A DNA stretch of 59,181 nucleotides from a virus: IMG/VR virus record IMGVR_UViG_3300035670_000237, positions 1-59,181 of that record; one strand, written 5' to 3'. Positions within the stretch are counted from its first letter, which is position 1, and each line of letters starts with the position of its first letter. Made by a program: the position numbers and the translations under genes. The notes below the pieces were generated by a model. It saw nothing but the letters and a program-made list of their open reading frames with translations. It searched no databases and was not told the origin of the DNA. Below are positions 2 to 46,797 of this stretch, piece by piece.

Positions 2-754
2 GGGCGCTGGATTGAAGGCCGCCGCGCCAGCGAGGTGCGCGAGGTGGCTGCCGCCATCGTCAGCGACCTGCAGACAGCCTATGCGCCGGCCACCATCAAC
101 CGCAGCCTGGGCGCCTTGAAGAAGGCGCTGGCCGACGCCTGGCAGCGCGGACGCACGCCGGTGGACTACAGCGGCCTGGTCAAGCGACTGCCCGAGAACA
201 ACCAGCGCACCGTCTACCTGACCATGGAGCAGGTGCACCAGCTGGCCGAGTGCGCCAGCGAGCAGGTGCGCACCGCCATCTGGGTGGCCATGCTGACCGG
301 CTGCCGTCGCGGCGAGGTGTGCAAGATCGAACGCGCCCACATCCACGGCGACGTGCTGCGCATACCGGCCGGCAACACCAAGACGCTGCGCTACCGCGAG
401 GTGCCCATCGTCCCTGCCCTGCGCCCGTGGCTGGAGCGGCTGCCGCTGGCCATCAACTTCGAGGGGGTGAAGTCAGGTTTCCGCCGCGCCCGCGAGAAAG
501 CCGGCATGCCCGAGGTGCACTTCCATGACCTGCGCCACTCATGTGCCACCGTGCTGCTGCAGCTGGGCGTGGAGTTGCACGTGGTGCGCGAGATCCTCGG
601 CCACACGTCGGTGAAAACCACCGAGCGCTACGCGCACGTGATGGTGGAACCCCAGCGCAAGGCGCTGGAAAAGCTCGGAACCCAGGCCGCGATTTACGCC
701 GCAGATTTACACCAGAAACAGAAACGGCCCCGGAGGGCCGCCGTAAGTCGTTGA
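2..754 (+). CDS. int: Tyrosine integrase, 3' part (5' truncated by window edge)
   Basis: Catalyses site-specific integration and, with an excisionase, excision of the phage. The reading frame is open from base 2; the first internal ATG is at 35. It shows the C-terminal catalytic domain of the tyrosine recombinases: the first Arg in GCRRGEVCKI, the HDLRH box, the GH of EILGHTSVKTT, and the nucleophilic Tyr in TERYAH near the C-terminus. The N-terminal arm-binding domain is missing here but is present at 58628-59181. Bases 156-282 equal 59055-59181 in the same frame, so the joined gene would encode 341 aa, a normal length. Bases 2-155 are a diverged allele (about 90% identical) of the matching right-end stretch. 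The attachment site follows directly, the usual arrangement. Confidence 0.93.
   Translation, partial: GRWIEGRRASEVREVAAAIVSDLQTAYAPATINRSLGALKKALADAWQRGRTPVDYSGLVKRLPENNQRTVYLTMEQVHQLAECASEQVRTAIWVAMLTGCRRGEVCKIERAHIHGDVLRIPAGNTKTLRYREVPIVPALRPWLERLPLAINFEGVKSGFRRAREKAGMPEVHFHDLRHSCATVLLQLGVELHVVREILGHTSVKTTERYAHVMVEPQRKALEKLGTQAAIYAADLHQKQKRPRRAAVSR
156..282 (+). repeat. 127-bp terminal direct repeat (left copy; right copy 59055-59181)
   Basis: This segment is identical to the last 127 bases of the window. The base immediately before it differs (a at 155, g at 59054), and the preceding 150 bases are only about 90% identical. An exact 127-bp end overlap is typical of a de Bruijn assembly with k of 127. 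It shows that the contig closes on itself, rather than being a natural terminal repeat. The collapsed circle is 58,899 bp. Confidence 0.85.
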
Positions 755-1672: not shown

Positions 1673-4600
1673 CTACTGCGTCACCGCCTCCGACCGAATC
1701 ACTCTTTGGCGCTGAATCACCCGGACCCGTGAGTTCAGGTCGCGCATGGTCTCGGCGATCTGCTCGTCAACCTCGCGCATGCGGTCGCGGTAGCCCTCGG
1801 GCTTCTGCGTGGCAAGGTCGCGGCGCAGTTGGCGCAGCTCGCTGACACGGCGGCTGTACCGATCGGCGGCGCCGGCCAGTGCGGCCAACGGCTCGGCGCG
1901 CCGGAAGCCGTCGACGTCCTCCTGGTTGCGCGCGCGGCCCCTGAGCTCGTTCTCGACTTGGTTGATCGCCTTGACGTTCTCGTAGAACTGGTCGCTCTGC
2001 CCTGCGGTGCCGCGCGTGGTGCCCGCCAGGCGCCCGATCAGTGGCACCTTGTAGAGCGGCAGCTCGTCCCCGGTCACGGGGCTCGCAACCGTCGTCATCA
2101 ACTTGGACGTTTCACGCCAGACACCGCCCAGAAGCTGCCCGATCACATAGTCGATCTGGTCGGGCGTCGGGCTCCAGGCGCCAGGCTGGTACTTCGTGCC
2201 GCCGGTCACGGCGTTGATCGCCGTCGCCAAGCCCTTGCCCACCGGGCTGGCGGTGTCCTTGGTCAGTGCGGTGCCGGGCTGTGGATCAAGCGGACTGCGG
2301 TCCTCTCGGTAGATCGGCCGCCCCGTCCAGTCCTTGTTGTCGAGCAGCGCCACAACTGGGTCGACCACAGTTGGGGCAACCAACTGAGCCGGTGGCTGAG
2401 CTCCCCCCAGCGGGTTGAACGCATCCAGCAGCACCCCCATCAGCGCGCCCAACTGCTTGCCGGCGGTCTTGTCGCTGCCGCCCAGCGCGAACTCCACCGA
2501 CAGCCGCCCGATGTTGGGCAGGAAGTTGAAGCCCAGCGGCAGGGGCAGCGCGATGTAGTCCTTGCCGGACACCGGGATGATGAGGCTTCGCTCCTTGACG
2601 AAGTCCGGGATCTTGCTCCAGTTGTCGTCGTCCTCGTCGTCGTCATCAAAGCCACCCATGACTGCCATGCCTACCAGCGTGTTGATGGCGCCCAGCGCCA
2701 CACCGCCGGCCATAATCTTGCGGCCGGCTGGTCCCGTCAGCGTCTCGACCATGCGCGCGGTGCCCTGCACGGCCGCATTGAAGAACGCGTACCAGGCATT
2801 GATGTCGCGAGTCTTCTGGCCCTTGCGGTTGAAGTTGACCGTCAGGTTCTTGGCCAGGCTGGCCGCGCGCTCCCTGCTCATGCCCTCGTCCAGTGCGACC
2901 TTGTAGGCGGCGACGCGGACGGCGTTCTCCATCGACTCGTTGTAGTCGCTCAGCCAGTCGACGAATGCGTGCGCCACCCTCGACACCTGCCCGCGCTCCA
3001 GCGCTGCGACCTCCTTGGTCAGCGCCTTGGCGCGGTCCTCGATGTCGGCAAACAGGTCTCGGAAACCGGTGGTGCCGCCCACCTCCTCAAGGTCGCGCCA
3101 CAGCGCAACCCAGCGGGCATTGACGGGGTTCGCCGCGCCCTTGCCGCGCTCCTGGCGGTACACCGCGCGCATCGCGTGATGCACGCCGGCCAGTACCTGC
3201 CGCTCCTTGCCGGCCAGCGGCGTGGTGCTCAGGTTGAGCGCGGCGCTTCCCACGTCGCGCATGAAGTTGACGATGCCAAAGATCGGGTTGTATTGGGTGT
3301 TGACGCTGGCAAACCAGCGCGTGCCCACGGACACCGTCCGCGTCACCCAGCCCAGCTCTCCGATGTCTGCGGACTTCACCGCCGTGGCCAGCCGCACCGC
3401 CTGCGGGTTGCGCTGGTCGAAGATGATGCTGACGTCCTTGCCGCCGATGCGCAGCGTCACGACGTTGGGGTCTTTGCGGTAGGTGCCGTCCATCTCGCGC
3501 CGCACCGTGCCCGTCACCGGGTCGAGGTACTTGCGCATGGGCGGGCTGCCGATACGCCAGAAGTCGCGCAGCGGGTTCTGCCCCACCAGCAGGTACAGAC
3601 GCTGCAGCACGAGGTTCTTCTCGCCCCGCGTCAGCGCCGCCTCGCGCTGCATGGCAATGTGCGCCAGGATGTTGGTGACGCGCTGGTTGCTGCCCACGCG
3701 CTCGCGCACGCCTGAGCCGCGCACGTTGAAGCCTTGGCCAATCGGGTGGCTTTGGCTGTCCGGGTGGGCCTCGTCGCGGTGCAGCGGGATGTAGTGCTGG
3801 TACTGCGCCCGCCAGGCGTCGGCGGTCTGCCGGTTGACCAAGCCGTAGCGCTCCAGCGATTCCAGGGTCTTGGCGTTGATGCCGTCCACCTGGGCCGCCA
3901 GGGCGTCCAGGTCGGAACGCTGCGCCGGCGTCAGTGCGGCCATGACGGCCGCCGCCTCGGCGTCGCTCATGCCTGAGAGCGACAGGCGCTCGTCCTCGGT
4001 GCCAGGAAACGGCTGCATGCGCCGCACCCCGGCCAGGCGCTCCTGGTGCTGGGCGACGGCCTGCTCAAGGGCCTGTGTGGCGGTGCCTTGGGCCATGGCG
4101 CGCTGCAGCAGCACCCGTACGGCCTTCAGTTCAGCCTCGGCCTGCAGCTCCAGCGCGTCCAGCTCGGCCCGGCTGGGGTTGCGCTGCGCCATCGCGGCAT
4201 TGGCCTCGGGCGCGTGGCGGGCGTGCAGAAAGCGCTCCAGCGTCTCGAGATCCACGCCGCGCGTCTTCATGTCCTGCAACAGCGGCCGGAACTCGTTGGC
4301 CAGAAAGTCCTCGGTACGCGTGGCCAGCCGCTTGTGGAACAGCTCCTCGCCCAGGTAGGCGTCGTTCAGGTCGCTGATCGTGCCGCCCAGGGCCTGGATG
4401 CGCTCCTGAACGCGCTTCAGGTCGATGAAGCGGTCCTGCAGCTTGTAGCGCAGCGCGTCCCAGCCCTCCATGCTGGTGAGGTTCATCACCCGCTGCTTCA
4501 GGGCGTGCCAGCGGTTGCGCTGCACCGGGCCGGGCTGCGGCGGGGGGGTGGGGCCGATGGAATTGCGGCTGAACATGGGCGTGGCGTTGCCGTCATCGCC

Positions 4601-7600
4601 AGGCTCTGCCATACTGGCGGGGCTTTCCGCTCCCGCTGGGCTGCCTCTCTGCGTAGAGTCCCGGCGCGTAGCCCCGCCCAGTGATGGGGGGACGGCATCG
4701 GAGGCCAACGACCCAGCCCCCATTCCATCGCGGGAGAGCGAAGCGGCGGATTGCGTAGGCGCAGCGGCAGCATAACCGGCCGGGCGCGCATCTGGGTCGA
4801 TCTCGAATGCGGTGATGATCCAGGCATTTGACCCGGGGTTCTTCACCAGCCCGACCCGATAGCCATCGTGCTCGATCTTCACCGAGGTCGATGAATTCGA
4901 TTCGACTCGCTTGGTCTCGGCGCCGGAAGCAACCGCGCGAACCATCTCCGCCAGAACCCGCAGAGCCTCGGCCTCAGTGAGCCCGTCCTTACGCATGCGG
5001 GCCTCGATGATGTGTGACAGGCCGCGGCCTCCGACGGTTCTGCCAGACGACTTGACCTTACCCTCGTCGCCCCACACGAAGTCCACCCACCCCATGCCGC
5101 TGCGGAACATGGCGCGGTGAACGGTGGTCTTGCCGGTGACGGCCTCGGCCAGCGCGCGCAAGCCGCGGTCGATGTTGGCGGTGACGCTCTTGGTGGCCGA
5201 ACGGCTCAGCGCCACGGCCGGCGTGCGCGCGCCGTCAGCGTTCGCCCCCATCGCGCCCCGCTCCACCCACCCCCGCGCCGGCAGGATGTAGCTGCGGATG
5301 ATCTCGGCGTCCGTCAGGCGCAGGCCCTCGAGGCCGGGCACGTTCTGGCGCAGCCAGGTGCGCAAGGCGGCCACGGCGCGCTTCACGAAGCCCAGTTCGG
5401 GCTGGGCCTTGGCCATGTCGGCAAGGATTTCCTCGGCCACCTCGCGCCGCTCGCGGCGCAGCAAGGCCACAGCGGCTGACTCCAACGCGGCGCCCGACAG
5501 CGGCTCCATGCCCGCCTGCCGGCGCAGGCTGTTGACCCGCTCGCGCGAGGCGGCCAACGTCAGCACCTTGCCGTACTGCGCCGCCTTGGGTCGCATCAGG
5601 TCGGGCCGCGCCAGGCCAATCTGGTCGAGGATGCCGTTCAGGGCATCGCCAAAAACGGCGCGCAGCCCGTAATGGCCCAGCACTTCGTGGAACAACGCCT
5701 CCATCGCCTGGCGGGGCGACGCGATGCCGTCGGCCACCAGGTACACCACGCCGTCGTAAAAGAACCCATCCGGCGAGCCGGTCGCGCCAGCCTCGCGCTG
5801 CGCAGCGTCCTCGTCGCGCACGGCTTCAGGCACGCGTGGATCCTGCATCGACTGCACCACCACGATGGACGGGCGCTGCGCCCAGCGCGACACCACGGCA
5901 TCCACCACCGACTGCACCGATGCCGACGACATCAGCCGCGCGCCACCGGCACGGCTGAACGCCGGCTTGCCGGGCTTGGACTCGCCCAGGCCCAGCACCT
6001 CGCGCGCCACATCCGGGTTCGACCCCGGCATGAGCTTGATGTCCTGGCGCCCGGTGAGCAAGTGCTCCACCGCCCGCTCCAGCGCAGCCTCGCTCACCGA
6101 AACGGCGGACATCAGGTTGCCGCGCTTGTAGAAGTCCTGGCCAAGGGCTCGCGTCAGCGCCTTGTCCAGGTAGAGCTTGCCGCCTTCGCGCTTGGATGCG
6201 GGCGTGGTCAGCGTGAACTTGCCACCACTTGACACGATGCGCAGCGCGCCGGTGCCATCGACCACCACCGCACCATTGCCCGCGCGCCGCAAGAACTCCA
6301 TCACCCGCGCCGGGGTGCCCAGCGACAGACTTGACCCGCTCTTCTTGGCCTTGTCAAAGTCAAACCCACGTCGCATCAGCACGCCCTGGGCCACGCTGCC
6401 GTCGTCGCGGGTGTAGCTGACGATCTGGCCCGGATACTTGGCAAACCCCGCCAGCAGGTTGCCAGTCACCATCCAGCGCCGCTCGCGCCGCACGTTGCCG
6501 GCCGAGTACAGGTCGAACAGGTCTTGAACCGCCAGGGTGCGCGAGCCGCCGTCGTCAGTGGGCAGGCTGATGTTGGCGCTCTGATCGCGCACTGTGAAGG
6601 CCCGCCCGATCTGGCTGGCTGTCAGCGTCAGCGAGCGTGCGTCGCCGTTGGCCAGGGCAATCGTCATCTTCCATGACGAGCCGGCCGACGGGTTCTTGGT
6701 GGCGCCGGTGTTGCTGATGGCGGTGATGACGCCATAGGTGGGCACCTGCTGGGCATCCAGCACGGTGACGCTGTCGCCCACCGCGTGACTGCGCAGCATC
6801 GCCTCCACCAGGTTCTTCTGCAGGTTCGCGGTCTCCACCTCGCGCTGTGTGCGCATCGGGTCGGCACCGGCAGCCTCTCGCCTGGCCCTGAGGTCGGCCA
6901 CAAAAGCCGCATGCCTCTTGTTCAGGCCAGCGATGAGCTCGGCCGCCAGCTGCGACGCCGTCTTGTCGCCAAGCGTCTGCGCCACGGCTGCGGCCACCTC
7001 GGCGCGCGTCATGGGCTTGACGGTGCGCGCCACGTCCACCTTCTCCATGTAGGAGGGCTCGGCAAAGCGCGACGTCATGGCCCGGTTGTCGCCCTCGCGC
7101 GGGGCAGTGATGGCCTCGCTGCTGAGCGTGCGAGCGCCCAGGTCCAGCGCCCGCGCCTCCAGCTTGTTGGTGCCCATGGCGTCTTCGCGCTCGATGAGCT
7201 CGGTGTAGCGCTGCACCAGGTCGGCGTACACGGACTCCTGCTGCTCAAGCGGCAGGATGGGGATGTAGCCCGTGAGCTTGCGAATGAGCTCGTCGTCAGC
7301 CTTGGTCACATCGTCCGGTACCGGCAACCGCTCGTTGCCGCCCAGCGCTGCGTGGATCTCAGGGTTGTCCATCAACAACTCGGCGGCCACCTGCCCGCCG
7401 TAGTTGTTCATGAAGTCGACCACGCCCTCGGCCGTGACCGCGCTTTTGCGGCTGGCTGTGGTGTTGGCGTTCAGCGACGCCATCTTGTTCATCAGCACCG
7501 CTGCCGGGCGCATCTCGGCCGGGATGTCGGCCATGGCCTGGGTGTAGTCGGGCGTCACCACCTGCCCGGTGCGGTGCACACGCCCGAGCATCTGCATGTG

Positions 7601-10600
7601 GGTGTCGATGTTCTTCTCGGCCTGCACGATGATCATGCGCCGCTTGCGCTGATCCTTCACCTTGTCCGAGGCGTGAAGCGACAGGCCCGTGGATCCCGAC
7701 TGGTTGAGGATGATCGCGTCGATGTCGCCGTTGTTGAAGCCCCGGATGGCGCGCAGACGCTGGCGAATGTCAGCGTTGCGCCCGGCCAGCGTCGGCACGG
7801 TGCCGCCGCCGTAGTTGACCGTCATGCTGCGGCCGGTGATCTCGTCGCTGCTGAAACCGGCCGCACGCAGCCGGTCGTGCATGAAGTCGATCGGCGAGAT
7901 GGGCGCTGCGCCGAAGCCCGCGCGGCCGATGAAGTCGGCCGTCTGCTGGTACTGGCGCACCAGCACCTCGCCCAAATCGTTATCGGTGAGGCGGTACTCC
8001 TCGTCCGCCTGGCTGCCAGGGCGCTTGATCTTGACGATGCGCTGCTTGTCCAGGTAGCGCAGGTACAGGTCACGGAACGAAAGCGCCACCGGCTCGCCGG
8101 AGCGCAGGCCCATGTCCTCCGCGTAGTCCTTCAGGAACGAACCCATGGTGTTGGACACGGTGAGGACGACCTTCTCGCCGGCCTTCAGCCGCTCGATGGC
8201 GTACTCCACCGAGTTCTGCACCTTCAGCGCCAGCAGCATCTGGTCGATGAGGTTGTGCATGATGGCGCCGAAGTTGGCGCCGGCCACCGAGGTCTTTTCG
8301 CCGCCCACCGATCGCACCACGGCGGCCTCTTTGTCGAACGCCTTTTTCATCGAATCGACGGCCGCCTCCTTGGCGCGCGAGAACGCCAGGATCTGCCGCA
8401 TCGCGGTCGCCATGTTCTCGGCGGTGGCCTTGTCCACCGTGGTCTTGCGGGTGTCGTAGCCCACACCGGCGAATGTGCGCTCGCGCCGGATGTACTGCCC
8501 GTCTTCGGTCAGCATCGTGGCCACGATCTGCTGCATGGGCACGCCGCCCTCCTGGATGGCCGGCGCCAGGTCGATCGGCCGGTCCACCGCCAGCATCATG
8601 TTGGTGCTGGAATACAGGTCCATCACGTCCGGCCGCTTGGCATAGGTGGCCGAGCTGAAGAAGCTGCCGGCGGAGTTGCGCACCAGCTCGCGCGCAAAGC
8701 CCGCCCGGCCAAGCTTGTTCTCGCCGTCCGCCTCGGCCTCGCGCGCCTCCTTGGAGCGCGCCTGCCGGGTGGAGGTGCCGCCCGCGTTGTGGCTTTCGTC
8801 GAAGATGACGTAGCCTCCATCGGCAAAGCGCTGCAGGAAGCGCATGCGCGCGGTGGCCTTGCCGGCCACGGTCTGCGTCTGGCTGTAAGTGGTGAAGATG
8901 ACCTTGTACTCGCCCAGGTTGCCGCTGGCGGCCATGCCGTCCAGCAGCTTGGCCAAAGCTTCCTTCTGTGCCGGCGCGCGCAGCGTGCGCTCCAGCTCCA
9001 CCGCCTCGCCATCAACCTCGCGGCGCAGCGCGTAGGGAATCGACTCGCTGCCGTTGGTGATCAGGATGGCCGAGCGCTGCGCCTGCAGCCCGAGCTCGTC
9101 GGCCATGCCGATGTCGTCCAGGTCGCGCACCATGTCGGCGTACAGGTTCGGCTTTTCGGTGATGAACACCGGCACCTTGCCGCTGCGCAGCGCGTAGCGG
9201 ATCATCGCGGCCACCACGCGGCCCTTGCCGATGCCCGTCTGGTCGCCAATGACGAAGCCCGCGTCAGACTCGGCGTTGTAAATGGCCAGGGCCAGCGCAT
9301 CCACCTGCTCGGCACTGAAGTAACGGCCAAGCTCTGCAGTGTCATAGCCGAGCTTGCCGGCCACGTAGGTGTCGATGTCGCCAACGGCCTCCTGCACACG
9401 GGCCAGCGAGGCCAGCACCGCGTCGCGCATGCCGCGCGGCACCAGCGTGCCCACCGAAGCCACGCTCGAGGCGGGCGCGTACGCCACCTGGGTGGCGGTC
9501 TCCTGTTCCTGGCCCCGGCGGTCGGCCGGCCGGTTCAGCGCGGGCTCATTTCGGCCAGCGCCATCTCCACCCACGCCAGCAGGTCGGTTTCCTCCATCTC
9601 CTCGAGCAGCCCCTTCATTCGCGGCGTCATTCGCGCCGGCACCTTGGCCGGGAATGGGTTGCGGTAGCTGTTCATTGCCAGGCTCAGCACCGTTCGCAGC
9701 TCCAGGTTGTGCCCGAACAGGCTGCCCCCCGCGTGGTACGGCTGGTCGATCGCCATCAACCCCATTGCCGACAGCGCCCGGTTGGCGATCTCCAGACCGT
9801 CCGGGTCGCGCGCCGTCATTGCGTTGATCCGGTCCTCCAGGGCGAACCGCCACCGCGACTCCGTCAGCTCCTCGCCCGCCGGGACCATCACCGCGCACAG
9901 CCCCGGCTGCACGAACGGCGGGCACCACGGCACCATCGCTTGCGCCTGGTTCGTTGGCGGCGTTGGCTGGGGCGACTGCGGTGTTTGCGGCGTTGCCATC
10001 AATCTTCTCCTTCAGTGCGGCCCACGAATCGTAGCGCGCAGGCAACTCGGCGGCCGGCATCGCGCGCGTGGCCTTGCCGCGCCCGTTGATGACGATCACG
10101 TCCACCGGGTAGCTGGCACCCTGCCGCGCGTAAAGGCCACCGTCGAGCGTGAAATGGTCGGTGACGTTGTACTGCTGGTAGAGCCGGAAGTAGAACTCCC
10201 GCTTGGCCTTGGCGCGATAGCCCTCGCGCAGCGCCTCGTCGCTGGTGGCGTTGACGCCGCCGACGATCAGCACCGCGCGGCCGTCGTCCTTGAGCGCCTG
10301 CAGTGCGCGCAGCGCAATGGCGTGATCGATTTCGCGCGTGCCGTAGTTCGGCGCGGCGGCCCAGATGATCGGCTGCCCGTCGTCGTCGCGCACGACGCCG
10401 AACGGCGGGTTCATGAGCTCCACATCCAGCGTGCCGGCTGGCGCCATGTCAGACGTGGCGGCGTTGTTCTGCGTGACGGTGAAACCAAGCGCCCGGGCAT
10501 TGGCCGCACGCTCGTCGTTCAGCTCGTTGACCACGGCATCCTCGGGCGCCACCTCCAGCAGCAGCATGGTGTTGCCCGCTGTGGGCTCGCCCACCCTGTC

Positions 10601-13600
10601 ACCAGGCTTGACGCCCGCCAGGCGCGACGCCAGAAAGGCCAGCGGCACAGGCGTGCTGTACGCCTGCTCACGCACGCTGGTGGATGAGCGCATGCCCAGC
10701 GTCGGCTGCAGCCCGTACAGGTTGACCAGGCGGTCGTAGATCACACCGTCGGCGCGTCCCTGAGCACGTGCGGCCTGCACGATCTCCCGCGCAGCCAGTA
10801 CAACGGCGTTCTCCACCGTCTCGTCGGCCCGCTTGGCAGCCTGAGAACCCGGCTCGACGGCCTGCCCGGTCAGCTCGGCAATAACCTTGCGCGCCTCGAC
10901 GATGGTCTTGAAGCCGTCGCCGCCGATGAAGAGGTCAGCAATGGCCTGCGCCAGGGCCTGCCGGCCAGCAGCCGTGCCCAGGGAAGGGCTGGCCGCTGCG
11001 CCAGGCCGTGCTGGTGCGGGAGCTGGTGTGGGAGCTGGTGTGGATTCCTCGGCCTTCAGTGCGGCATCGATGTCCGCATCCTCGACATCGGCCGCACGGT
11101 CCATGTCGGCCTTCAAACCAGCCGCGCGCGGGTCGTTGCGCACAGCCAAGTACCAGGACACGAGGTAAGGCTTCACCGCGTCGCCCAGGTCGTCCACCAT
11201 TGCCCGGGCGTAGGCAGCGAATCGGCGCGCGCCGCGCTCGATGTGATACCCCGCCAGCGTGATGCCGTCCAGCATCGTCTCGGGGTCGATGCCCGACTGC
11301 AGTCGCCCGAGCTTCTTGCGCAGACGCTCGCGCGCCGCATTGGCCGCCTCTTCCGTGAAGATTGTGTTGGCGCTGCCAGGCGGGGTGGGCGCTGGCGCCT
11401 GGGCTGGTGCCTGGGCTGGTGCCTGGGCCGGTGCCTGGGCCGGTGCCTGGGCTGGTGCCTGGGCTGGTGCCTGGGCCGGTGCCTGGGCTGGTGCTTGGGC
11501 CGGTGCTTGGACTGGTTCCGCTGCAGGCGGAATAGGCGCCGGAGTCGGCGCCGGAGTCGAAATCGCCTCCGCGACAGTCGGATCGCTCGACGTGCCAATG
11601 ATGCCGCGCAGCTTCGTGCGCACCGGCTTGGGCATGTTGTTCCACAGCACGCGGTCCGGCAGGCTCTTTGCGCCGACCTGACTCAGCGCGGCGCGCTTGC
11701 CGGCGGGCGTCATGGACTGCCACCACGCCTCGGCCGCGGCGTCATCAGCCGGCGCCCCAGGCTGCTGCCCAGGCGCGCCGGCCGGCGGGTTCACCGCATC
11801 GGGGGCTTCTTGCCCCCCTTGCCCTTCTTGCCGTAGCCCATTGGCTGCTCCTTGCTGAGTTGAGGCCGCGCTTGGAGCCGGGGCGGCCGGTGCCGGCTTC
11901 TTCCTGTACCGCACCACGTCGCGGTCCATGTCCCACGAGGCACCTGGCTCTCGGGCAACCTCGTACTCGCGATCCGGGTTGGCTTGAAAGGCCGCGTTCA
12001 CCGCGATGTTGAAGGCTTTGCGGTTTTGCAGGTCAGATTCGAACGTGCCGCGCTTGAGAGTCTGGCGGTACAGCTCGGTGAGCGCGCTGTCCTCAACCCA
12101 CTTGCCCTCATCAAAACGCTGACGATCCAGCTGCTGCCGGCGCTGGCGGCGACGGTCAGCATCAAGACGCTGAATCAACTCACGGACCTCACGCTGCAGG
12201 CGCGACGTGCCCTCGAAATTCCGCTCCGCGTCGAAGTACTCCTCCTGCAGCACGCCCTCGGCCGCCTCAATGCTGGGCGCGTTGCGGATGCGATCCAGCC
12301 GATCCGCCTGGCGAGATTCGTAGGTGTCTGTTGCGGTCGTCGCGGACGGTTGCGCAGCGGCCGGTGCCGAAACGTCTACTCCGCTGCCGGTGGCTGCTGC
12401 ACCTGCGCCCTGCGCGCCAGTTCCGTCCGCGCCCTGCGGATCAGAGCCTGCCCGTTGCGAACCAGCTCCAGGTCGTTGTCCAGCTGGCCCATCTGCAGCT
12501 GCATCTGACCCAGGCGCAGGGCCTGCGCCGGGAAGTTCTCCACCGTTCGCGGCAGGCTCTTGGCCTGTCTGGGCTGGCTGGGCTGCTGGGGCTGCTGGGG
12601 CCGCTGGAGCGCCGGGTTGGGATCCTGCGACATTGAGGTCATTGGGGACATTGGCGGCTCCTTCGGCAGCGTTGTTCAGAGACTGCAGCGCTTGCAGCGG
12701 GGTGGGCGCGTCATCGAACAGGCCCATGCCCGTACCAGCGGACAGCGCCGCATTGACATACCCGTCCAGGATGGACGCCACCTTCTCGCGCCCGCGCGCC
12801 CGCGTCAGGTTCTGCCCGCCGTAGAGCACGCGCAGCGCCTCCACGGTCAGCTCGTCGGCCGGTCGGCCGGTTTCCAGGTCGACCTGGTTGGCCATGTCCA
12901 ACAGGCCCTTGCGGCCGCGTCGGGCGGTACGCACCATCTCCACGGCGCGCATCAGGTCGGCGGTGATGTCGAAGCCTGGCTCCACCACACCCGAGCGCGC
13001 CATGTCGCGCATCAGGGCCCAGCTGCCGGCCGCCTGGCGCAGCGCGCCGCCGATGGCCGAGATGTCGGTGTCGTTGCTCTCGTACAGCTCACCCACCAGA
13101 TCAGGGCGGTCGTAGGCATTGGCCAGCAGCGCAGCCTCCATGCGGCGGCGACCATCCTGCGACAGCATGCCGTCCGCCGTCATCAGCGTGGCGGTGTCCT
13201 GACCGATGCCGCGCAGCCGACCGACGAAGCCTCGCGCAAAGTCCAGGTTGGCCATGGCGTCCATGTCGCCGCCGCGGTACAGCGACAACAGCCCGGCATC
13301 AATGAGGCGGGCGTCGCCGGCGGCAAGCTCCTGCGCCGTCAGTCCCATGCCCTGGCCCTGGCTCTTGGCGGCCATGTTGGCGGTGTTGTCGCGCTCGGAG
13401 TACAGGCGCACCAGCACAGGACGCTCAAGTTGCGCCACCGCGGCCGGGTCCACGCCGTGGGTCTGCGCATCGGCCACCAGCTCGGCCTTGTAGCGCTCGG
13501 CCGTGCCGCGCTGCCAAGCCTCGCGCAGGCCGGCCGTGCGGCCATTGTTCAGCGCAATCAGGGTTCCCGGCGTCTGCTGCGCAAAGGCCGGATTGGCGCT

Positions 13601-15346
13601 TCCGTCGGCAAAGTTGGATGGCTGCAGCACAGCGGCATCCACCACGGCATAGCGAAACGGCACACGCTGACCATCGGCCATCACAGCCACGTCCTCGCGG
13701 CCCAGGGCGGATGGCTGCACGGGGGCGCCCGCATCTCCCACGGCGAACACCATTGGCGCACCCGTGTCCGGCGAGCGACTGGGGCCCAGGCGCATGTAGT
13801 CCGGATCAGCGGCAATCTGCTGCATCTGCGCCACCGACGCCGCGCGCGTTCGGTCTCGGTTCTGCAGGTTCTGGGCGGAGTCGTCCACCGATGGCGGGGC
13901 GCCACCGGTCGCCGGGGGTGTTGCAGGGGGCGGTACCGGCGCCGCGTTGGCCAGCGTGGCCGTTGGTGCAGCCGGTGACGCCGCGGGTGATGCCCCGGGC
14001 GGTGCGGGCGGTGGCGCGGACAGATCCGCATCCGAATCATCCTGCAGCCGCTGCAGCAGGCCATCGAGCTCGCTTTCCTCGGCGTCGGTAAGTGCGCGGG
14101 TCTGCGACAGCAGCATCAGCGTGTTGATGCGCTGCATGTCGTCTGGGCTGATGAATACGGCCGACAGGGGTGTGGCGGTTCCGGACGAAGCGGGCGGCGT
14201 TCCAGGGCCGGATCCCGGTGGCGTAATGGGCGGCGTTCCAGGAGTGGCCCCAGGAGCACCTGGAGCACCTGGAGCACCTGGAGCACCTGAGGCACCTGAG
14301 GCCTGCGCCGGACCACGCGGGCCCATCAGGCCGCCCTGCGTCGCCACATCGACGCCCCCGCCCAGGCCAAAGCCCAGCAAGCCGGCCACGGCCAGCTCCT
14401 TGGCGGCAGATGTGCCGCTCGGCACCTCGCCCGTGCCGACCGCTCGGCCGGTGATCTGGCCTGCCGTCTCGCCAATCTCCTGGGCTCCCTCACGCAGGCC
14501 TGCGCCCAGCGCCTGGCCCGTGCGCTGCACGATGCCCTGCGACGCCACCTGCTGGCCGGTAATGGCTCGCGTCAAGGCGCCCTCGGCACCGCCCCGCGTG
14601 ATGAGCCCAGCCACCACCGAAAACGGCACCGTGATGCCTGCGGCCACGTAGGCGCGATCCATCGGCGCGCCCTTGTCCAGCAGTTCGGCGAAAGTGTCCG
14701 CCGCGTTCTGTGCCGCCACCGTGCCGGTGCCAGCCCATTGCTGGGCACGCGCCACGCGGCTGGCCAGCTCAGCCCGGCCCAGTGCCTGCGCGCCCTGACC
14801 AACCGTGGCCAGACGACCGGCCGCCGCACCCACGCCAACCGGCAGGAACATGCTGCCGATGGTCGGCAGGAACTGGTCAGCGATGGCGCCCTTGTTGCGG
14901 CCCAAAGCCTGCAGCACGCCCACGGAGTCGTCCCGCATGTCGGCTTCGAAGTTGGTCCGCTGCGCTGCAGCACGGTCCGAGCCAACCACCTGGCGGATGG
15001 CTTTCATGCCCCGCTCCATGGCCCTGGAGGTATCGCCGCCCACGCGGTCGCCTGTGGCCAAACGCGCAATGTCGGCCACGCCCTTGACGGCGGTCGGGCC
15101 GATCTGCAGCACCCCAGCCGCCGCGTCCTGCGCAACGCTGCCAACGCTCAGTCCGGGAACGTCAACGCGCGGGTCCTGGTAGTCGTCAAACTGGTCAAAG
15201 AAGTTGCCTGCAGCGCCTTGCTGCATGACCTGGTCGCGCACTGCGGCCTGGGGTGCGGCAGCAGACGGCGAGGCTTCGGCTTGCGTGGTCGCGGCCACAC
15301 CCGAAGCGTCGTCGTCATCGTCAAAGCGGTCGAAGTAGTTGGCCAT
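1673..15346 (-). CDS. Giant polyvalent protein: ParB-like, N6-adenine methylase, strawberry-notch helicase, peptidase-like and nuclease-like domains (DarB-type)
   Basis: A single uninterrupted frame encodes 4,557 aa, 23% of the genome. Visible parts in order: two short NYFDRFDD/NFFDQFDD motifs and a glycine-rich hydrophobic stretch (to about residue 340); a ParB/DdrB-like domain (about 510-680); low-complexity linkers including nine PAQA units near 1280-1320; an adenine methylase with NPPF near 1645; a superfamily 2 helicase of strawberry-notch type with GDQTGIGKG (about 2034), FDESH (about 2180) and GRVHRTGQ (about 2585); an HEVLGH zinc-peptidase-like motif (about 3220); a PBECR-like nuclease domain with GRGLSHI (about 3440); and an LPD38-like C-terminus with a membrane segment near 4220 and an acidic patch. 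Phage P1 DarB, with methylase and helicase parts, is packaged and protects incoming DNA from restriction. I infer the same role here. It is the last gene of the late operon. Confidence 0.88.
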   Translation of the reverse strand: MANYFDRFDDDDDASGVAATTQAEASPSAAAPQAAVRDQVMQQGAAGNFFDQFDDYQDPRVDVPGLSVGSVAQDAAAGVLQIGPTAVKGVADIARLATGDRVGGDTSRAMERGMKAIRQVVGSDRAAAQRTNFEADMRDDSVGVLQALGRNKGAIADQFLPTIGSMFLPVGVGAAAGRLATVGQGAQALGRAELASRVARAQQWAGTGTVAAQNAADTFAELLDKGAPMDRAYVAAGITVPFSVVAGLITRGGAEGALTRAITGQQVASQGIVQRTGQALGAGLREGAQEIGETAGQITGRAVGTGEVPSGTSAAKELAVAGLLGFGLGGGVDVATQGGLMGPRGPAQASGASGAPGAPGAPGAPGATPGTPPITPPGSGPGTPPASSGTATPLSAVFISPDDMQRINTLMLLSQTRALTDAEESELDGLLQRLQDDSDADLSAPPPAPPGASPAASPAAPTATLANAAPVPPPATPPATGGAPPSVDDSAQNLQNRDRTRAASVAQMQQIAADPDYMRLGPSRSPDTGAPMVFAVGDAGAPVQPSALGREDVAVMADGQRVPFRYAVVDAAVLQPSNFADGSANPAFAQQTPGTLIALNNGRTAGLREAWQRGTAERYKAELVADAQTHGVDPAAVAQLERPVLVRLYSERDNTANMAAKSQGQGMGLTAQELAAGDARLIDAGLLSLYRGGDMDAMANLDFARGFVGRLRGIGQDTATLMTADGMLSQDGRRRMEAALLANAYDRPDLVGELYESNDTDISAIGGALRQAAGSWALMRDMARSGVVEPGFDITADLMRAVEMVRTARRGRKGLLDMANQVDLETGRPADELTVEALRVLYGGQNLTRARGREKVASILDGYVNAALSAGTGMGLFDDAPTPLQALQSLNNAAEGAANVPNDLNVAGSQPGAPAAPAAPAAQPAQTGQEPAANGGELPGAGPAPGSDAAADGPAGQRPGAGSQRAGSDPQGADGTGAQGAGAAATGSGVDVSAPAAAQPSATTATDTYESRQADRLDRIRNAPSIEAAEGVLQEEYFDAERNFEGTSRLQREVRELIQRLDADRRRQRRQQLDRQRFDEGKWVEDSALTELYRQTLKRGTFESDLQNRKAFNIAVNAAFQANPDREYEVAREPGASWDMDRDVVRYRKKPAPAAPAPSAASTQQGAANGLRQEGQGGQEAPDAVNPPAGAPGQQPGAPADDAAAEAWWQSMTPAGKRAALSQVGAKSLPDRVLWNNMPKPVRTKLRGIIGTSSDPTVAEAISTPAPTPAPIPPAAEPVQAPAQAPAQAPAQAPAQAPAQAPAQAPAQAPAQAPAQAPAPTPPGSANTIFTEEAANAARERLRKKLGRLQSGIDPETMLDGITLAGYHIERGARRFAAYARAMVDDLGDAVKPYLVSWYLAVRNDPRAAGLKADMDRAADVEDADIDAALKAEESTPAPTPAPAPARPGAAASPSLGTAAGRQALAQAIADLFIGGDGFKTIVEARKVIAELTGQAVEPGSQAAKRADETVENAVVLAAREIVQAARAQGRADGVIYDRLVNLYGLQPTLGMRSSTSVREQAYSTPVPLAFLASRLAGVKPGDRVGEPTAGNTMLLLEVAPEDAVVNELNDERAANARALGFTVTQNNAATSDMAPAGTLDVELMNPPFGVVRDDDGQPIIWAAAPNYGTREIDHAIALRALQALKDDGRAVLIVGGVNATSDEALREGYRAKAKREFYFRLYQQYNVTDHFTLDGGLYARQGASYPVDVIVINGRGKATRAMPAAELPARYDSWAALKEKIDGNAANTAVAPANAANEPGASDGAVVPAVRAAGAVRGDGPGGRGADGVAVAVRPGGPDQRNDGARPGRSGDRQPGAVGNGVDGDRPAVPRGGQPVRAQPGAANGAEPGNEQLPQPIPGQGAGANDAANEGAARGDGGNRPAGVGGDGAGRNEPALNRPADRRGQEQETATQVAYAPASSVASVGTLVPRGMRDAVLASLARVQEAVGDIDTYVAGKLGYDTAELGRYFSAEQVDALALAIYNAESDAGFVIGDQTGIGKGRVVAAMIRYALRSGKVPVFITEKPNLYADMVRDLDDIGMADELGLQAQRSAILITNGSESIPYALRREVDGEAVELERTLRAPAQKEALAKLLDGMAASGNLGEYKVIFTTYSQTQTVAGKATARMRFLQRFADGGYVIFDESHNAGGTSTRQARSKEAREAEADGENKLGRAGFARELVRNSAGSFFSSATYAKRPDVMDLYSSTNMMLAVDRPIDLAPAIQEGGVPMQQIVATMLTEDGQYIRRERTFAGVGYDTRKTTVDKATAENMATAMRQILAFSRAKEAAVDSMKKAFDKEAAVVRSVGGEKTSVAGANFGAIMHNLIDQMLLALKVQNSVEYAIERLKAGEKVVLTVSNTMGSFLKDYAEDMGLRSGEPVALSFRDLYLRYLDKQRIVKIKRPGSQADEEYRLTDNDLGEVLVRQYQQTADFIGRAGFGAAPISPIDFMHDRLRAAGFSSDEITGRSMTVNYGGGTVPTLAGRNADIRQRLRAIRGFNNGDIDAIILNQSGSTGLSLHASDKVKDQRKRRMIIVQAEKNIDTHMQMLGRVHRTGQVVTPDYTQAMADIPAEMRPAAVLMNKMASLNANTTASRKSAVTAEGVVDFMNNYGGQVAAELLMDNPEIHAALGGNERLPVPDDVTKADDELIRKLTGYIPILPLEQQESVYADLVQRYTELIEREDAMGTNKLEARALDLGARTLSSEAITAPREGDNRAMTSRFAEPSYMEKVDVARTVKPMTRAEVAAAVAQTLGDKTASQLAAELIAGLNKRHAAFVADLRARREAAGADPMRTQREVETANLQKNLVEAMLRSHAVGDSVTVLDAQQVPTYGVITAISNTGATKNPSAGSSWKMTIALANGDARSLTLTASQIGRAFTVRDQSANISLPTDDGGSRTLAVQDLFDLYSAGNVRRERRWMVTGNLLAGFAKYPGQIVSYTRDDGSVAQGVLMRRGFDFDKAKKSGSSLSLGTPARVMEFLRRAGNGAVVVDGTGALRIVSSGGKFTLTTPASKREGGKLYLDKALTRALGQDFYKRGNLMSAVSVSEAALERAVEHLLTGRQDIKLMPGSNPDVAREVLGLGESKPGKPAFSRAGGARLMSSASVQSVVDAVVSRWAQRPSIVVVQSMQDPRVPEAVRDEDAAQREAGATGSPDGFFYDGVVYLVADGIASPRQAMEALFHEVLGHYGLRAVFGDALNGILDQIGLARPDLMRPKAAQYGKVLTLAASRERVNSLRRQAGMEPLSGAALESAAVALLRRERREVAEEILADMAKAQPELGFVKRAVAALRTWLRQNVPGLEGLRLTDAEIIRSYILPARGWVERGAMGANADGARTPAVALSRSATKSVTANIDRGLRALAEAVTGKTTVHRAMFRSGMGWVDFVWGDEGKVKSSGRTVGGRGLSHIIEARMRKDGLTEAEALRVLAEMVRAVASGAETKRVESNSSTSVKIEHDGYRVGLVKNPGSNAWIITAFEIDPDARPAGYAAAAPTQSAASLSRDGMGAGSLASDAVPPSLGGATRRDSTQRGSPAGAESPASMAEPGDDGNATPMFSRNSIGPTPPPQPGPVQRNRWHALKQRVMNLTSMEGWDALRYKLQDRFIDLKRVQERIQALGGTISDLNDAYLGEELFHKRLATRTEDFLANEFRPLLQDMKTRGVDLETLERFLHARHAPEANAAMAQRNPSRAELDALELQAEAELKAVRVLLQRAMAQGTATQALEQAVAQHQERLAGVRRMQPFPGTEDERLSLSGMSDAEAAAVMAALTPAQRSDLDALAAQVDGINAKTLESLERYGLVNRQTADAWRAQYQHYIPLHRDEAHPDSQSHPIGQGFNVRGSGVRERVGSNQRVTNILAHIAMQREAALTRGEKNLVLQRLYLLVGQNPLRDFWRIGSPPMRKYLDPVTGTVRREMDGTYRKDPNVVTLRIGGKDVSIIFDQRNPQAVRLATAVKSADIGELGWVTRTVSVGTRWFASVNTQYNPIFGIVNFMRDVGSAALNLSTTPLAGKERQVLAGVHHAMRAVYRQERGKGAANPVNARWVALWRDLEEVGGTTGFRDLFADIEDRAKALTKEVAALERGQVSRVAHAFVDWLSDYNESMENAVRVAAYKVALDEGMSRERAASLAKNLTVNFNRKGQKTRDINAWYAFFNAAVQGTARMVETLTGPAGRKIMAGGVALGAINTLVGMAVMGGFDDDDEDDDNWSKIPDFVKERSLIIPVSGKDYIALPLPLGFNFLPNIGRLSVEFALGGSDKTAGKQLGALMGVLLDAFNPLGGAQPPAQLVAPTVVDPVVALLDNKDWTGRPIYREDRSPLDPQPGTALTKDTASPVGKGLATAINAVTGGTKYQPGAWSPTPDQIDYVIGQLLGGVWRETSKLMTTVASPVTGDELPLYKVPLIGRLAGTTRGTAGQSDQFYENVKAINQVENELRGRARNQEDVDGFRRAEPLAALAGAADRYSRRVSELRQLRRDLATQKPEGYRDRMREVDEQIAETMRDLNSRVRVIQRQRVIRSEAVTQ
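11400..11507 (-). repeat. Nine tandem 12-bp units encoding a (PAQA)n linker
   Basis: Nine back-to-back units of TGGGCYGGTGCY on the plus strand encode PAQA repeats within the giant protein, between the ParB-like and methylase parts. Differences between units are almost all silent C/T changes, so the protein repeat is kept while the DNA has drifted. Such runs are prone to slippage in whole-unit (in-frame) steps, so copy number probably varies between relatives. It is likely a flexible extended hinge. Confidence 0.85.
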
Positions 15347-44686: not shown

Positions 44687-44968
44687 TCACCCGGCCTGGT
44701 CGATGCTTGCCAGCTCGGCCAGGTCAGGCAGTGGGCGGCCCTGCGGGTTGGGCCATCCGTCGTCGGGCATGCGCACCCAGCGCACGTCCGGGCGCAGCTG
44801 CTCGCAGGTGGCCGCGCCTTGCAGCGCGCGCTCAACGGCCGGGCAGCGCTCGATGGGCAGCACGCGCCGCCGGGTCAGCACCTGGTACAGGTACTGCTCG
44901 TTCATGCCCAGATCGCGCGCGGCAGCGTGCCGCACCGAGGCAGCAACTCGGGGGGCTTCAGTGGTCAT
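44687..44968 (-). CDS. Cro/YdaS-type transcriptional regulator
   Basis: A 93-aa protein with the YdaS-like helix-turn-helix pattern: VRHAAARDLGMNEQYLYQVLTRRRVLPIERCPAVERALQGAATCEQLRPDVRWVRMPD. The ending (cluster of E-R-A-x-x-G... LRPDVxW) is diagnostic for this Cro-like family. It is the first leftward gene and faces the repressor, as cro faces cI. The start has no clear ribosome binding site and lies 11 bases after operator O1, so the transcript is probably short-leadered and repressed through O1. Confidence 0.85.
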   Translation of the reverse strand: MTTEAPRVAASVRHAAARDLGMNEQYLYQVLTRRRVLPIERCPAVERALQGAATCEQLRPDVRWVRMPDDGWPNPQGRPLPDLAELASIDQAG

Positions 44969-44978
44969 GGGCGGAGTC

Positions 44979-44991
44979 TAGCGTAACGCTA
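44979..44991. promoter_or_regulatory. Operator O1, perfect 13-bp palindrome
   Basis: TAGCGTAACGCTA is a perfect inverted repeat (TAGCGT-A-ACGCTA) in the 70-bp gap between the divergent cro-like and repressor genes. Two related sites (11 of 13 bases each) occur at the early rightward promoter 1.8 kb away. The shared consensus is TAGCKTNNCGCTA. It is probably the binding site of the repressor or of the Cro-like protein. Confidence 0.75.
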
Positions 44992-45038: not shown

Positions 45039-45512
45039 ATGGACCACGAATTGAGCGCCCTACTGCGCCTTTTGCGCGCCACCTCAGAGCACCCAACTGG
45101 CACACCTGAAAGGCGGCGTCACGTTGCCGAGCTCGCCGGTGTCAGCGCTGACAACCTCTATCAGGTTGCACGCGGGATCCCGCTGGCCTCAGGGCGGCCA
45201 CGACAGCTCGGCCGCGATGTCAAGGAGCGCCTGACCGCAGCCTTCCCCGGCTGGCTCGACCTGGCGGGATCGTCGAATGCGGTTGCCGCACCAGCCGACA
45301 CTCCGGCGCCCATGCCCACGCAGGCGAGCACCGTAGTCGCGCCGTTGGCCCGCTGGCCACACGAGCGCTTTCCCGCGTCATACTGGCAACAGTTGACGCT
45401 TGCCGAGCGAGCCATCATCGAGGAGTCGATGCTCGAGGCCTACGACCGCCTCATGGCCCGGCGCGAACAGCTCGCCTCCGCTGCCGGCAAAACAGGACGG
45501 TCGGCGGCGTAG
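45039..45512 (+). CDS. Phage repressor-like protein (CI-type, HTH)
   Basis: A 157-aa protein. The N-terminal helix-turn-helix (LSALLRLLRATSEHPTGTPERRRHVAELAGVSADNLYQVARGIPLASGRPRQLGRDVKERLTAAFPGWLDL) matches short phage repressors encoded opposite YdaS/Cro genes. A Pro/Ala linker and a helical C-terminal segment (ERFPASYWQQLTLAERAIIEESMLEAYDRLMARREQL), probably for dimerisation, follow. There is no S24 peptidase domain, so it would not be inactivated by RecA cleavage. That fits induction through the antirepressor and C4 system at the other end of the early region. Start ATG at 45039, 47 bases from O1. Confidence 0.8.
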   Translation: MDHELSALLRLLRATSEHPTGTPERRRHVAELAGVSADNLYQVARGIPLASGRPRQLGRDVKERLTAAFPGWLDLAGSSNAVAAPADTPAPMPTQASTVVAPLARWPHERFPASYWQQLTLAERAIIEESMLEAYDRLMARREQLASAAGKTGRSAA

Positions 45513-45646
45513 GTCACGCGTGCCGGGTGTTGGCGTTTCGAGGCCGCTGAAAGCCCGCGGTTTGGTCAAAAATTCTGGCGAATGTCAGCGCATGAAAGTC
45601 GTAGCATGCAAGACTGCCAGCCAGACATCCCCCGGAGACCCATGTC

Positions 45647-45892
45647 ATGAACACAGACTTTCTGGCACAGGAAATCGCCACGTACAACCGGCTGCTGCCC
45701 GAGTTGCTGCTGCAGGTGGGGCGCTACGCTCTCATCAAGGGTGATGCGCTCATCGACACGTTCGACTCCTATCACGATGCGACCAAGCGCGGGTACGCGC
45801 TGTTCAAGCTCGAGCCTTTCCTGGTCAAGCAGATCTGCCCTGCCATGCCGGTGGCGTACTTCAGCCGCGACCTGGTGGCATGCCCTGCCTGA
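45647..45892 (+). CDS. Small hypothetical protein paired with aspartyl protease
   Basis: An 81-aa helical protein (MNTDFLAQEIATYNRLLPELLLQVGRYALIKGDALIDTFDSYHDATKRGYALFKLEPFLVKQICPAMPVAYFSRDLVACPA). The G-x-Y-A-L-I-K-G-x-x-L-x-x-x-F-x-x-Y-x-D-A-x-K-x-G-Y pattern occurs in small proteins encoded before retropepsin-like genes in proteobacteria. Its last 13 bases overlap the next ATG. It could be a substrate, inhibitor or partner of that protease. Start ATG at 45647 with CGGAG upstream. Confidence 0.7.
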   Translation: MNTDFLAQEIATYNRLLPELLLQVGRYALIKGDALIDTFDSYHDATKRGYALFKLEPFLVKQICPAMPVAYFSRDLVACPA

Positions 45893-46323
45893 CACTTTCG
45901 TGCACTGCCGCGGGGCCCACCGTTTCGGTGGCCATCGCCCCTAGCGCCCTCTTGCGCGATGCCATGATGGCGGCGGGCGTACAGCCTCCGCAGCCGGTGA
46001 TTGGCATCTTCCTGGTGGACACCGGGGCGTCGCACACGGTGGTCGACAGCAAGTTGATTGCTCAGCTCGCCGTCAACCCCACCGGCGCCGTGATGGTGCA
46101 CACCCCGTCGACGGCTGGCAGCGCCGTGCTGATGCCGCAGTACGACCTGATGTTGTTCGTCCCCGGCGTAGCCGGCTCAGGCGGCTGGCTGCTGGACGGC
46201 CTGCAAGTGACGGCGGCCGTCTTTGACGGTCAGCCCATAGACGGGCTCATCGGCCGCGACATCCTAAATCGCGGAATGCTCGTCTACAACGGGCAGGCCA
46301 GCCACTTCACACTCGCCTACTGA
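45880..46323 (+). CDS. Retropepsin-like aspartic protease
   Basis: A 147-aa single-domain aspartyl protease-like protein. The active-site loop is FLVDTGASHTVVD (Asp47-Thr-Gly-Ala-Ser), and the flap-to-end region has QYDLMLFV and IDGLIGRDILNRGMLVYNGQASHF, the ILGxDxL-type motif of retropepsins. As in retroviral enzymes, a homodimer would form the active site. It overlaps the small gene before it, so the two act as a unit. Located next to the repressor, it is likely expressed in the lysogen; cutting of a host or phage protein, or defence against other phages, is possible. Confidence 0.82.
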   Translation: MPCLTLSCTAAGPTVSVAIAPSALLRDAMMAAGVQPPQPVIGIFLVDTGASHTVVDSKLIAQLAVNPTGAVMVHTPSTAGSAVLMPQYDLMLFVPGVAGSGGWLLDGLQVTAAVFDGQPIDGLIGRDILNRGMLVYNGQASHFTLAY

Positions 46324-46332
46324 TCGCCCCAC

Positions 46333-46641
46333 TCACGCCACGCGCTGCCCCAGCGGCGCCGCTTCCGCCTCTTGCAGGTGCTCGCGCGCGATGCGCTTGA
46401 GCTCCGAGTTCGCGAAGCGCGTCAAGGTCTGACGCACCAAAGGCTGGTATCCCAGGCCATGTAGGCGACCGATCGCCTTCAGGTCCTCGATCAGCGATCG
46501 CGGCAGACGGATCGAAATCATCTGCAGGTCCAGGCCCTCGTCCAGCAGCGCCTGCTGTTCGGACGTGACGGTCACCTTGCGCGCATGGTCTCTGTCGCGG
46601 CCAAGTTGGCCGGTGTCCCACAACAGCTCCGGTGTCGTCAT
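46333..46641 (-). CDS. Orphan CopG/BrnA-like antitoxin
   Basis: A 102-aa protein. The C-terminal part LDEGLDLQMISIRLPRSLIEDLKAIGRLHGLGYQPLVRQTLTRFANSEL has the ribbon-helix-helix pattern of CopG-type antitoxins of type II toxin systems. No toxin gene is next to it: the upstream side is a promoter and the downstream side is the protease. It may act as a decoy against a host toxin or as a transcription regulator. Its promoter has tandem 11-bp repeats likely to be its own operator. Confidence 0.72.
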   Translation of the reverse strand: MTTPELLWDTGQLGRDRDHARKVTVTSEQQALLDEGLDLQMISIRLPRSLIEDLKAIGRLHGLGYQPLVRQTLTRFANSELKRIAREHLQEAEAAPLGQRVA

Positions 46642-46700: not shown

Positions 46701-46764
46701 GCTTCCCGCGAGCGCCAGACACCGGGAGTGAGTGCGGGTTAGGGTTTGTACTGGGCCAAAAAAC

Positions 46765-46797
46765 TAGCTTGACGCTACGCTAGCTTATCGCTAGCAT
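46765..46797 (+). promoter_or_regulatory. Early rightward promoter with operators O2 and O3
   Basis: -35 TTGACG (46769-46774), 17-bp spacer, -10 TAGCAT (46792-46797), 52 bases upstream of the first rightward gene. O2 TAGCTTGACGCTA (46765-46777) covers the -35, and O3 TAGCTTATCGCTA (46781-46793) covers the spacer into the -10. Both match O1 (TAGCGTAACGCTA) at 11 of 13 positions. A repressor bound here would shut off the whole early operon. Confidence 0.78.

Follow-up and report, generated by a model that had tools for sequence, protein, structure and literature searches.

A retropepsin-like protease and a small overlapping partner gene as a candidate accessory module of temperate phages

Two overlapping genes in a putative temperate-phage genome are best read as a mobile accessory module of temperate phages, in which a cytoplasmic retropepsin-like protease would act together with a dedicated small partner. 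The genes lie in virus record IMGVR_UViG_3300035670_000237, whose 59,181 bases were analysed as one stretch, here called the window. Related pairs occur in other viral contigs, on a plasmid and in bacterial genomes, and the order and overlap of the genes suggest how the protease may be kept under control. The function that we tentatively propose is defence of the lysogen against superinfection.

The two genes and their products

The earlier note, made from the letters of the window, had described an 81-aa gene followed with a 13-base overlap by a protease with a DTGAS motif, and both reading frames are indeed intact. The small partner gene (45647–45892, + strand) and the 147-aa protease gene (45880–46323, + strand) each start with ATG, and in the shared 13 bases (45880–45892, + strand) the last codons of the partner (...CPA stop) hold the protease start ATG CCC. 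Of 22 loci, 17 have a 13-base overlap as called, and the rest overlap by 4, 4, 8, 25 and 64 bases, the 64 of L035 becoming 13 when the homologous GTG is taken as start; in L074 and L075 the genes are instead separated, by 6 and 7 bases. The small gene is preceded by a ribosome-binding site, GGAGA (45634–45638, + strand), recognised by sequence and by pairing with the anti-Shine–Dalgarno (anti-SD) sequence. Across 19 loci, a set that omits several (for example L027, L031, L035 and L074–L082), the mean anti-SD pairing is −7.0 kcal/mol at the partner start and −2.0 kcal/mol at the protease start, against −2.1 kcal/mol for shuffled protease starts; the p-value of 1.5e-4 is nominal because the loci are related. 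Protease starts reach −4.0 kcal/mol or better in 6 of the 19, and in L029 the protease start pairs better than the partner start. A predicted ribosome site of its own on the small gene, and on average none above chance on the protease, is the main mechanistic clue. Since the site sits on the partner, it is likely that the protease is translationally coupled to the partner, which would then be made in excess; at most loci, ribosomes coming off the end of the partner gene would probably be the ones that translate the protease. Type II toxin–antitoxin operons are built in the same way, and of that build the small gene in first place and the overlap are seen directly, the coupling being inferred.

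By motif, profile and fold the larger product is a member of the retropepsin-like family, with dimerization and activity as predictions, in agreement with the earlier assignment. In an alignment of 21 sequences, including that of the window, the catalytic DTGA (residues 47–50, 46018–46029, + strand; Asp47 within FLVDTGASHT) is invariant in all 21. A TPST segment (residues 75–78, 46102–46113, + strand), with T75, P76 and S77 conserved at 90% or more and T78 invariant, lies where the flap would be expected. The retropepsin C-terminal signature consists of two hydrophobic residues and Gly followed by R-D/N. The earlier note had announced an ILGxD-type end; such a C-terminal motif is present (IDGLIGRDIL), but the sequence really reads LIGRD (residues 123–127, 46246–46260, + strand), which agrees with the signature, with L123, G125, R126 and D127, and thus GRD, invariant in 21 of 21. 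Among Pfam profiles, Asp_protease_2 (PF13650) matches at 1e-7 with 33 bits against a cut-off of 24.3, gag-asp_proteas falls slightly below its cut-off and RVP is weak. The structure model (pLDDT 92.5) has a retropepsin fold, and a fold search with it returned 20 PDB chains at E ≤ 0.001; 17 of these have retropepsin titles, and APRc ranks first. Inspection by eye found no membrane segment or signal peptide. One distant relative, L062, has DNGA instead of DTGA.

The 81-aa partner matches no model in Pfam (E ≤ 10), NCBIfam or PADLOC (E ≤ 10), and its best PHROG match is at chance level (E 0.16). Its model (pLDDT 85) shows an alpha-beta-beta-alpha-beta arrangement that ends in a poorly ordered tail (approximately residues 64–81; 45836–45889, + strand; pLDDT 58–75 in the last blocks of the monomer model). 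This tail carries a conserved F/I-[ST]-R-[DE]-like motif, with R74 invariant and C79 conserved at 90% or more in 21 sequences, and it seems to be kept for its protein sequence, given that the Arg codons vary between loci and that it lies upstream of the gene overlap. Compared with the PDB, the partner gave no match by sequence and none by fold at E ≤ 0.001 (best VIA-align Z 4.0), and in the absence of a clear resemblance to solved structures we read no function from its structure. Among 14 partners scanned, 5 match DUF5678 (PF18929), 4 of them below the cut-off at 2e-4 to 7e-3; the retropepsin-linked partner of L045 exceeds it at 2e-7 and scores E 0.2 against a broad partner profile. The window partner, itself without a DUF5678 match, is therefore linked to that family only through intermediates, and differs from it by a long N-terminal helix and the conserved tail. 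In 299 genomes the DUF5678 profile gave 4 subthreshold matches, 2 already seen and 2 without a partner-profile match, and literature searches for the domain returned unrelated work only.

Conservation and distribution of the pair

It is very probable, judging from comparisons of sequence, that the two genes form a conserved module with an intact active site. The first relative to emerge was Methylobacterium plasmid pNYY1_5, where the same two genes overlap by 4 bases and the partner is 44% identical to that of the window over 64 residues. In the Methylobacterium locus L002 the annotated protease start at 6049 is probably too late; homology runs from an ATG at 6001, which gives a 4-base overlap with the upstream gene. 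Protease queries built from alignments recovered 29 viral contigs, and in 28 of them the partner lies directly 5' on the same strand, a result of the kind of neighbourhood comparison that the earlier note had suggested; the 28 are not fully independent, because L034 was first found by a partner query and some contigs score as duplicates (L021 with L022, and L019 with the Paraburkholderia locus L015, each couple probably being the same element). In the sole exception, L073, the partner cannot be seen because the contig begins 113 bases 5' of the protease; in L077 the contig ends within the partner. Pattern scans of bacterial genome and viral contigs with the 147-aa protease alone returned nothing, as the relatives are too diverged for a single sequence and were recovered by alignments. 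The expectation that such proteases are rare in phages holds to the extent that the 147-aa protease finds one chance-level match in a phage collection, but not in view of the 29 viral contigs reached through diverged relatives. Two candidate matches proved to be chance and were rejected: L005, where the match falls within another frame, of 186 aa, and H1 (Aeromonas phage phiA005), which has no retropepsin-like frame. A Pandoraea plasmid (L003) annotated with a longer aspartyl protease was kept out of the counts.

In bacterial genome contigs the pair is present at all three loci found (Roseateles, 65% identical, Paraburkholderia and Ruegeria). Across 399 Burkholderiales genomes the protease profile matches in 23, at 25 places; both strong matches (E below 1e-40) are paired, one being the known Roseateles, and at the 23 weaker places an 8-row partner profile found no partner within the roughly 1.5 kb examined. 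Among 318 Alphaproteobacteria genomes all five with a protease match at E ≤ 1e-8 carry the pair, one being the known Ruegeria. Searched in the reverse direction, the partner profile gave 8 matches at E ≤ 0.01 in 398 Pseudomonadota genomes, with a retropepsin after it in 4, one of these again the known Roseateles. In the other 4 (L064, L065, L066 and L068) the partner-like gene has no adjacent protease and stands after a GGDEF-type gene, and in three of these four a ppx-like gene follows (both by-eye readings). One of the 23 weaker Burkholderiales places, L045 (1116–1848), has a true DUF5678 gene that overlaps its retropepsin gene, behind a gene read by eye as XRE-like.

A more distant case is the Leptospira phage locus L088 (KF114879.1 70035–76358, reversed), in which an 80-aa gene stands just 5' of an unannotated retropepsin (2711–3504) and the pair adjoins an opposite-strand gene with a portal-like annotation. 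The 80-aa gene is weakly DUF5678-like (E 0.0065), the retropepsin matches PF13650 at 2e-10, and the tblastn link to the pair family is weak (E 0.3). We take this phage to be temperate.

Evolutionary distances of partner and protease correlate across 21 loci (r = 0.87; 0 of 2,000 permutations), a comparison of sequences that shows joint travel, not contact. Where dS could be computed, dN/dS ranges from 0.05 to 0.33 (partner 4 of 10 comparisons, protease 5 of 10, the other 6 and 5 being saturated); between the window and Roseateles it is 0.29 for the partner and 0.13 for the protease, the latter with near-saturated dS. These values indicate purifying selection on both genes in the computable comparisons, and with the invariant DTGA and GRD they place the protease far beyond chance. 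The pair is also far from being known as degraded genes only: copies are mostly intact, and two are broken, with a stop codon in the protease of L091 and a frame break in that of L075.

Genomic setting

The C-terminal part of a tyrosine integrase is encoded at 35–754 (+ strand; PF00589 over cut-off), and the frames at the right end of the record code for the N-terminal part of such a protein. Positions 1–643 and the last approximately 600 bases hold overlapping, nearly identical integrase stretches that differ in two residues, which looks like an imperfect terminal redundancy of the kind left when a circular genome is assembled with some mismatches. With integrase parts and a repeated stretch at both ends, the record looks like a circular temperate-phage genome. 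It also holds a single open reading frame of 4,557 aa (1673–15346, − strand), very large for a phage of such size.

The earlier note had placed the pair in an immunity region. A divergent YdaS-like (Cro-type) regulator gene (44687–44968, − strand; PF15943 E 3e-13, phrog_35 repressor 1e-10) and flanking operator-like repeats support that placement, short of proof. Directly 5' of the pair lies a 157-aa gene (45039–45512, + strand), for which position and operator-like repeats make the role of lysogeny repressor a weakly supported suggestion; its PHROG matches are weak (best E 0.15–0.16) and a search for phage relatives gave none that was informative. The block that contains the pair is flanked by three exact copies of the 14-base sequence CTAGCNTNNCGCTA, at 44978–44991, 46764–46777 and 46780–46793 (all + strand), in a layout that resembles lambda oR and oL. 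Allowing at most one mismatch, there are 4 matches in the record against 0.32 expected, and none of 100 shuffles reaches 4, for a pattern that was picked after the repeat had been seen and with the fourth match being the opposite strand of the first site. Two earlier guesses at an operator motif were dropped as no better than chance. The second and third copies overlap a promoter-like site at 46769–46797, identified by consensus match only. Between the 157-aa gene and the pair, no promoter-like or terminator-like site was found, nor a consensus promoter before the pair, so co-expression of the pair with the 157-aa gene may be possible. On the 3' side a convergent CopG-like ribbon-helix-helix gene (46333–46641, − strand; phrog_17810 E 1e-26, CopG_antitoxin 9e-4 and below cut-off) ends 9 bases from the protease stop, a neighbour outside the conserved pair.

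Elsewhere the setting varies. By eye, the pair follows repressor-like genes in L019, L031 and L032, and stands among late-looking genes in L017, L020, L025, L034 and L035, on the same strand as these in three of the five, and with the large neighbouring genes on the opposite strand in L034 and L035; for these five, expression in the lysogen is not assured. An integrase adjoins the pair in L018, L023, L024, L026 and L028. Of 60 flanking proteins from 20 loci, at least 5 match integrase families and at least 3 repressor families, as counted among 25 of the 116 families matched; the 60 comprise 57 of 73 listed proteins (16 likely non-coding or far off were dropped by eye) and 3 others. Of 26 carrier records, many of them fragmentary, 14 have an integrase; the 26 are the window and 25 of the 29 contigs (L022, L035, L073 and L075 left out). 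Because the insertion sites vary among repressor-like genes, integrases and other phage genes, the pair appears to be accessory cargo, and the cargo character first suggested from its position in the window is borne out by these sites and the integrases.

Known systems and possible functions

Two candidate systems in PADLOC, PDC-M08 and PDC-M52, have a component B that matches retropepsin-like proteases, as in the pair. The 147-aa protease matches PDC-M08B weakly (E 8e-5, 20.7 bits, for a model that shows no curated cut-off), as do, at E ≤ 0.1, 8 of the 10 further proteases scanned (best 5.5e-7, for L088), and that of L045 matches PDC-M52B at 1e-5; these weak matches may reflect only the common fold. 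On the partner side, 15 proteins were scanned against PADLOC, and no model matched any of them. The one model each of PDC-M08A and PDC-M52A that was looked at, with 86 positions, resembles the partner in size only, and the window partner matches no model of either system. The PDC-M08A model PDLC04400 matches none of 15 records, the window among them, and at E ≤ 0.001 none of 200 Pseudomonadota genomes, a search in which no control matched. With a partner that matches neither candidate system, the pair is not filed as PDC-M08 and at most works like one; as far as sequence goes, it is a new form of an architecture that figures among PADLOC's candidate defence systems. According to a 2026 archaeal survey, PDCs derive from guilt-by-embedding and validation is pending for most of those discussed (PMC12988326). 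The term 'PDC-M08' was not found in the literature searched. Among characterised proteases, Rickettsia APRc (RC1339; PDB 5c9b) has the same fold and is the best match (E 1e-4, TM 0.59/0.68), at about 15% identity to the 147-aa protease; it is described as a suggested modulator of surface proteins in Rickettsia. RimB and RloA are further bacterial retropepsins of this fold, RloA2 being periplasmic by PDB title. We know of no small overlapping partner for APRc, RimB or RloA. Phage lambda keeps rexAB beside its regulators, between operators. Those exclusion genes are likewise two genes on the strand of the repressor, here a candidate one, between operator or operator-like sites; the likeness is one of position only and implies neither sequence relationship nor shared mechanism.

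Superinfection defence by the protease under control of the partner is the function we favour, at a little below an even chance. The pair would be expressed in the lysogen, and the partner, made first and in excess, would bind the protease. The contact would most plausibly be made by the poorly ordered but conserved tail, as an inhibitor or pseudo-substrate, and the bound partner would either hold the protease idle or aim it. A trigger in the infected cell, most likely a superinfecting phage, would then free or redirect the protease, which would cut a host or phage protein so that the infection is stopped. This build is common to toxin–antitoxin modules and to caged immune effectors; the genomic setting would favour superinfection defence. 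The neighbouring reading, in which the partner serves as antitoxin to a protease whose cleavage of host proteins is toxic, so that prophage or plasmid is maintained and defence is at most a side effect, would fit the antitoxin-first order, the overlap of 4–25 bases in most loci, the ribosome site on the first gene and the mobile-element setting; yet no DNA-binding fold was recognised in the partner (in weak searches) and partner-like genes occur without an adjacent protease, and we consider it unlikely.

The position of the pair between operator-like repeats in the window, and after repressor-like genes in three other loci, would also suit a role in lysogeny control, with the partner as adaptor for a protease that cleaves a regulator encoded by the same phage, such as a repressor or antirepressor; but in other phages, on the plasmid and in bacterial chromosomes the module is found apart from such regulators, which makes this decidedly unlikely. 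Copies in bacterial genomes, which may themselves be prophage-borne, and the reported action of characterised bacterial retropepsins on host functions would fit a protease that processes a host protein unrelated to the phage, as RimB or RloA do. Against this stand phage carriage and a patchy, low occurrence (2 strong matches in 399 Burkholderiales), and we regard it as quite unlikely. Very improbable is a morphogenesis protease acting on virion proteins: the late-looking neighbours of the five loci named above invite the idea, but the pair sits in the immunity region here, next to integrase or repressor-like genes elsewhere, and opposite in strand to the large neighbours in two of those same five.

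Among the best-ranked matches in the literature searched, which lay outside subscription journals and preprints and were judged partly by title, no link between a retropepsin and a phage function was found, and a search for retropepsin with prophage returned plant-virus work only. To our knowledge, retropepsins are not among the protease types of prophage defence. If the pair is defensive, it would add a new protease type to prophage defence and open a first way into the function of DUF5678-like proteins and of two PADLOC candidates. As a compact two-gene module whose protease is probably made only after the partner, it is easily cloned and directly testable. A bolder version of superinfection defence, which we hold to be doubtful, is a new class of prophage immunity with a retropepsin effector, a DUF5678-like partner as both cage and sensor, a phage trigger that releases the tail-occupied protease, and PDC-M08 and PDC-M52 as further branches. 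If true, this immunity class would reach across phages of proteobacteria and spirochaetes as well as plasmids and chromosomes.
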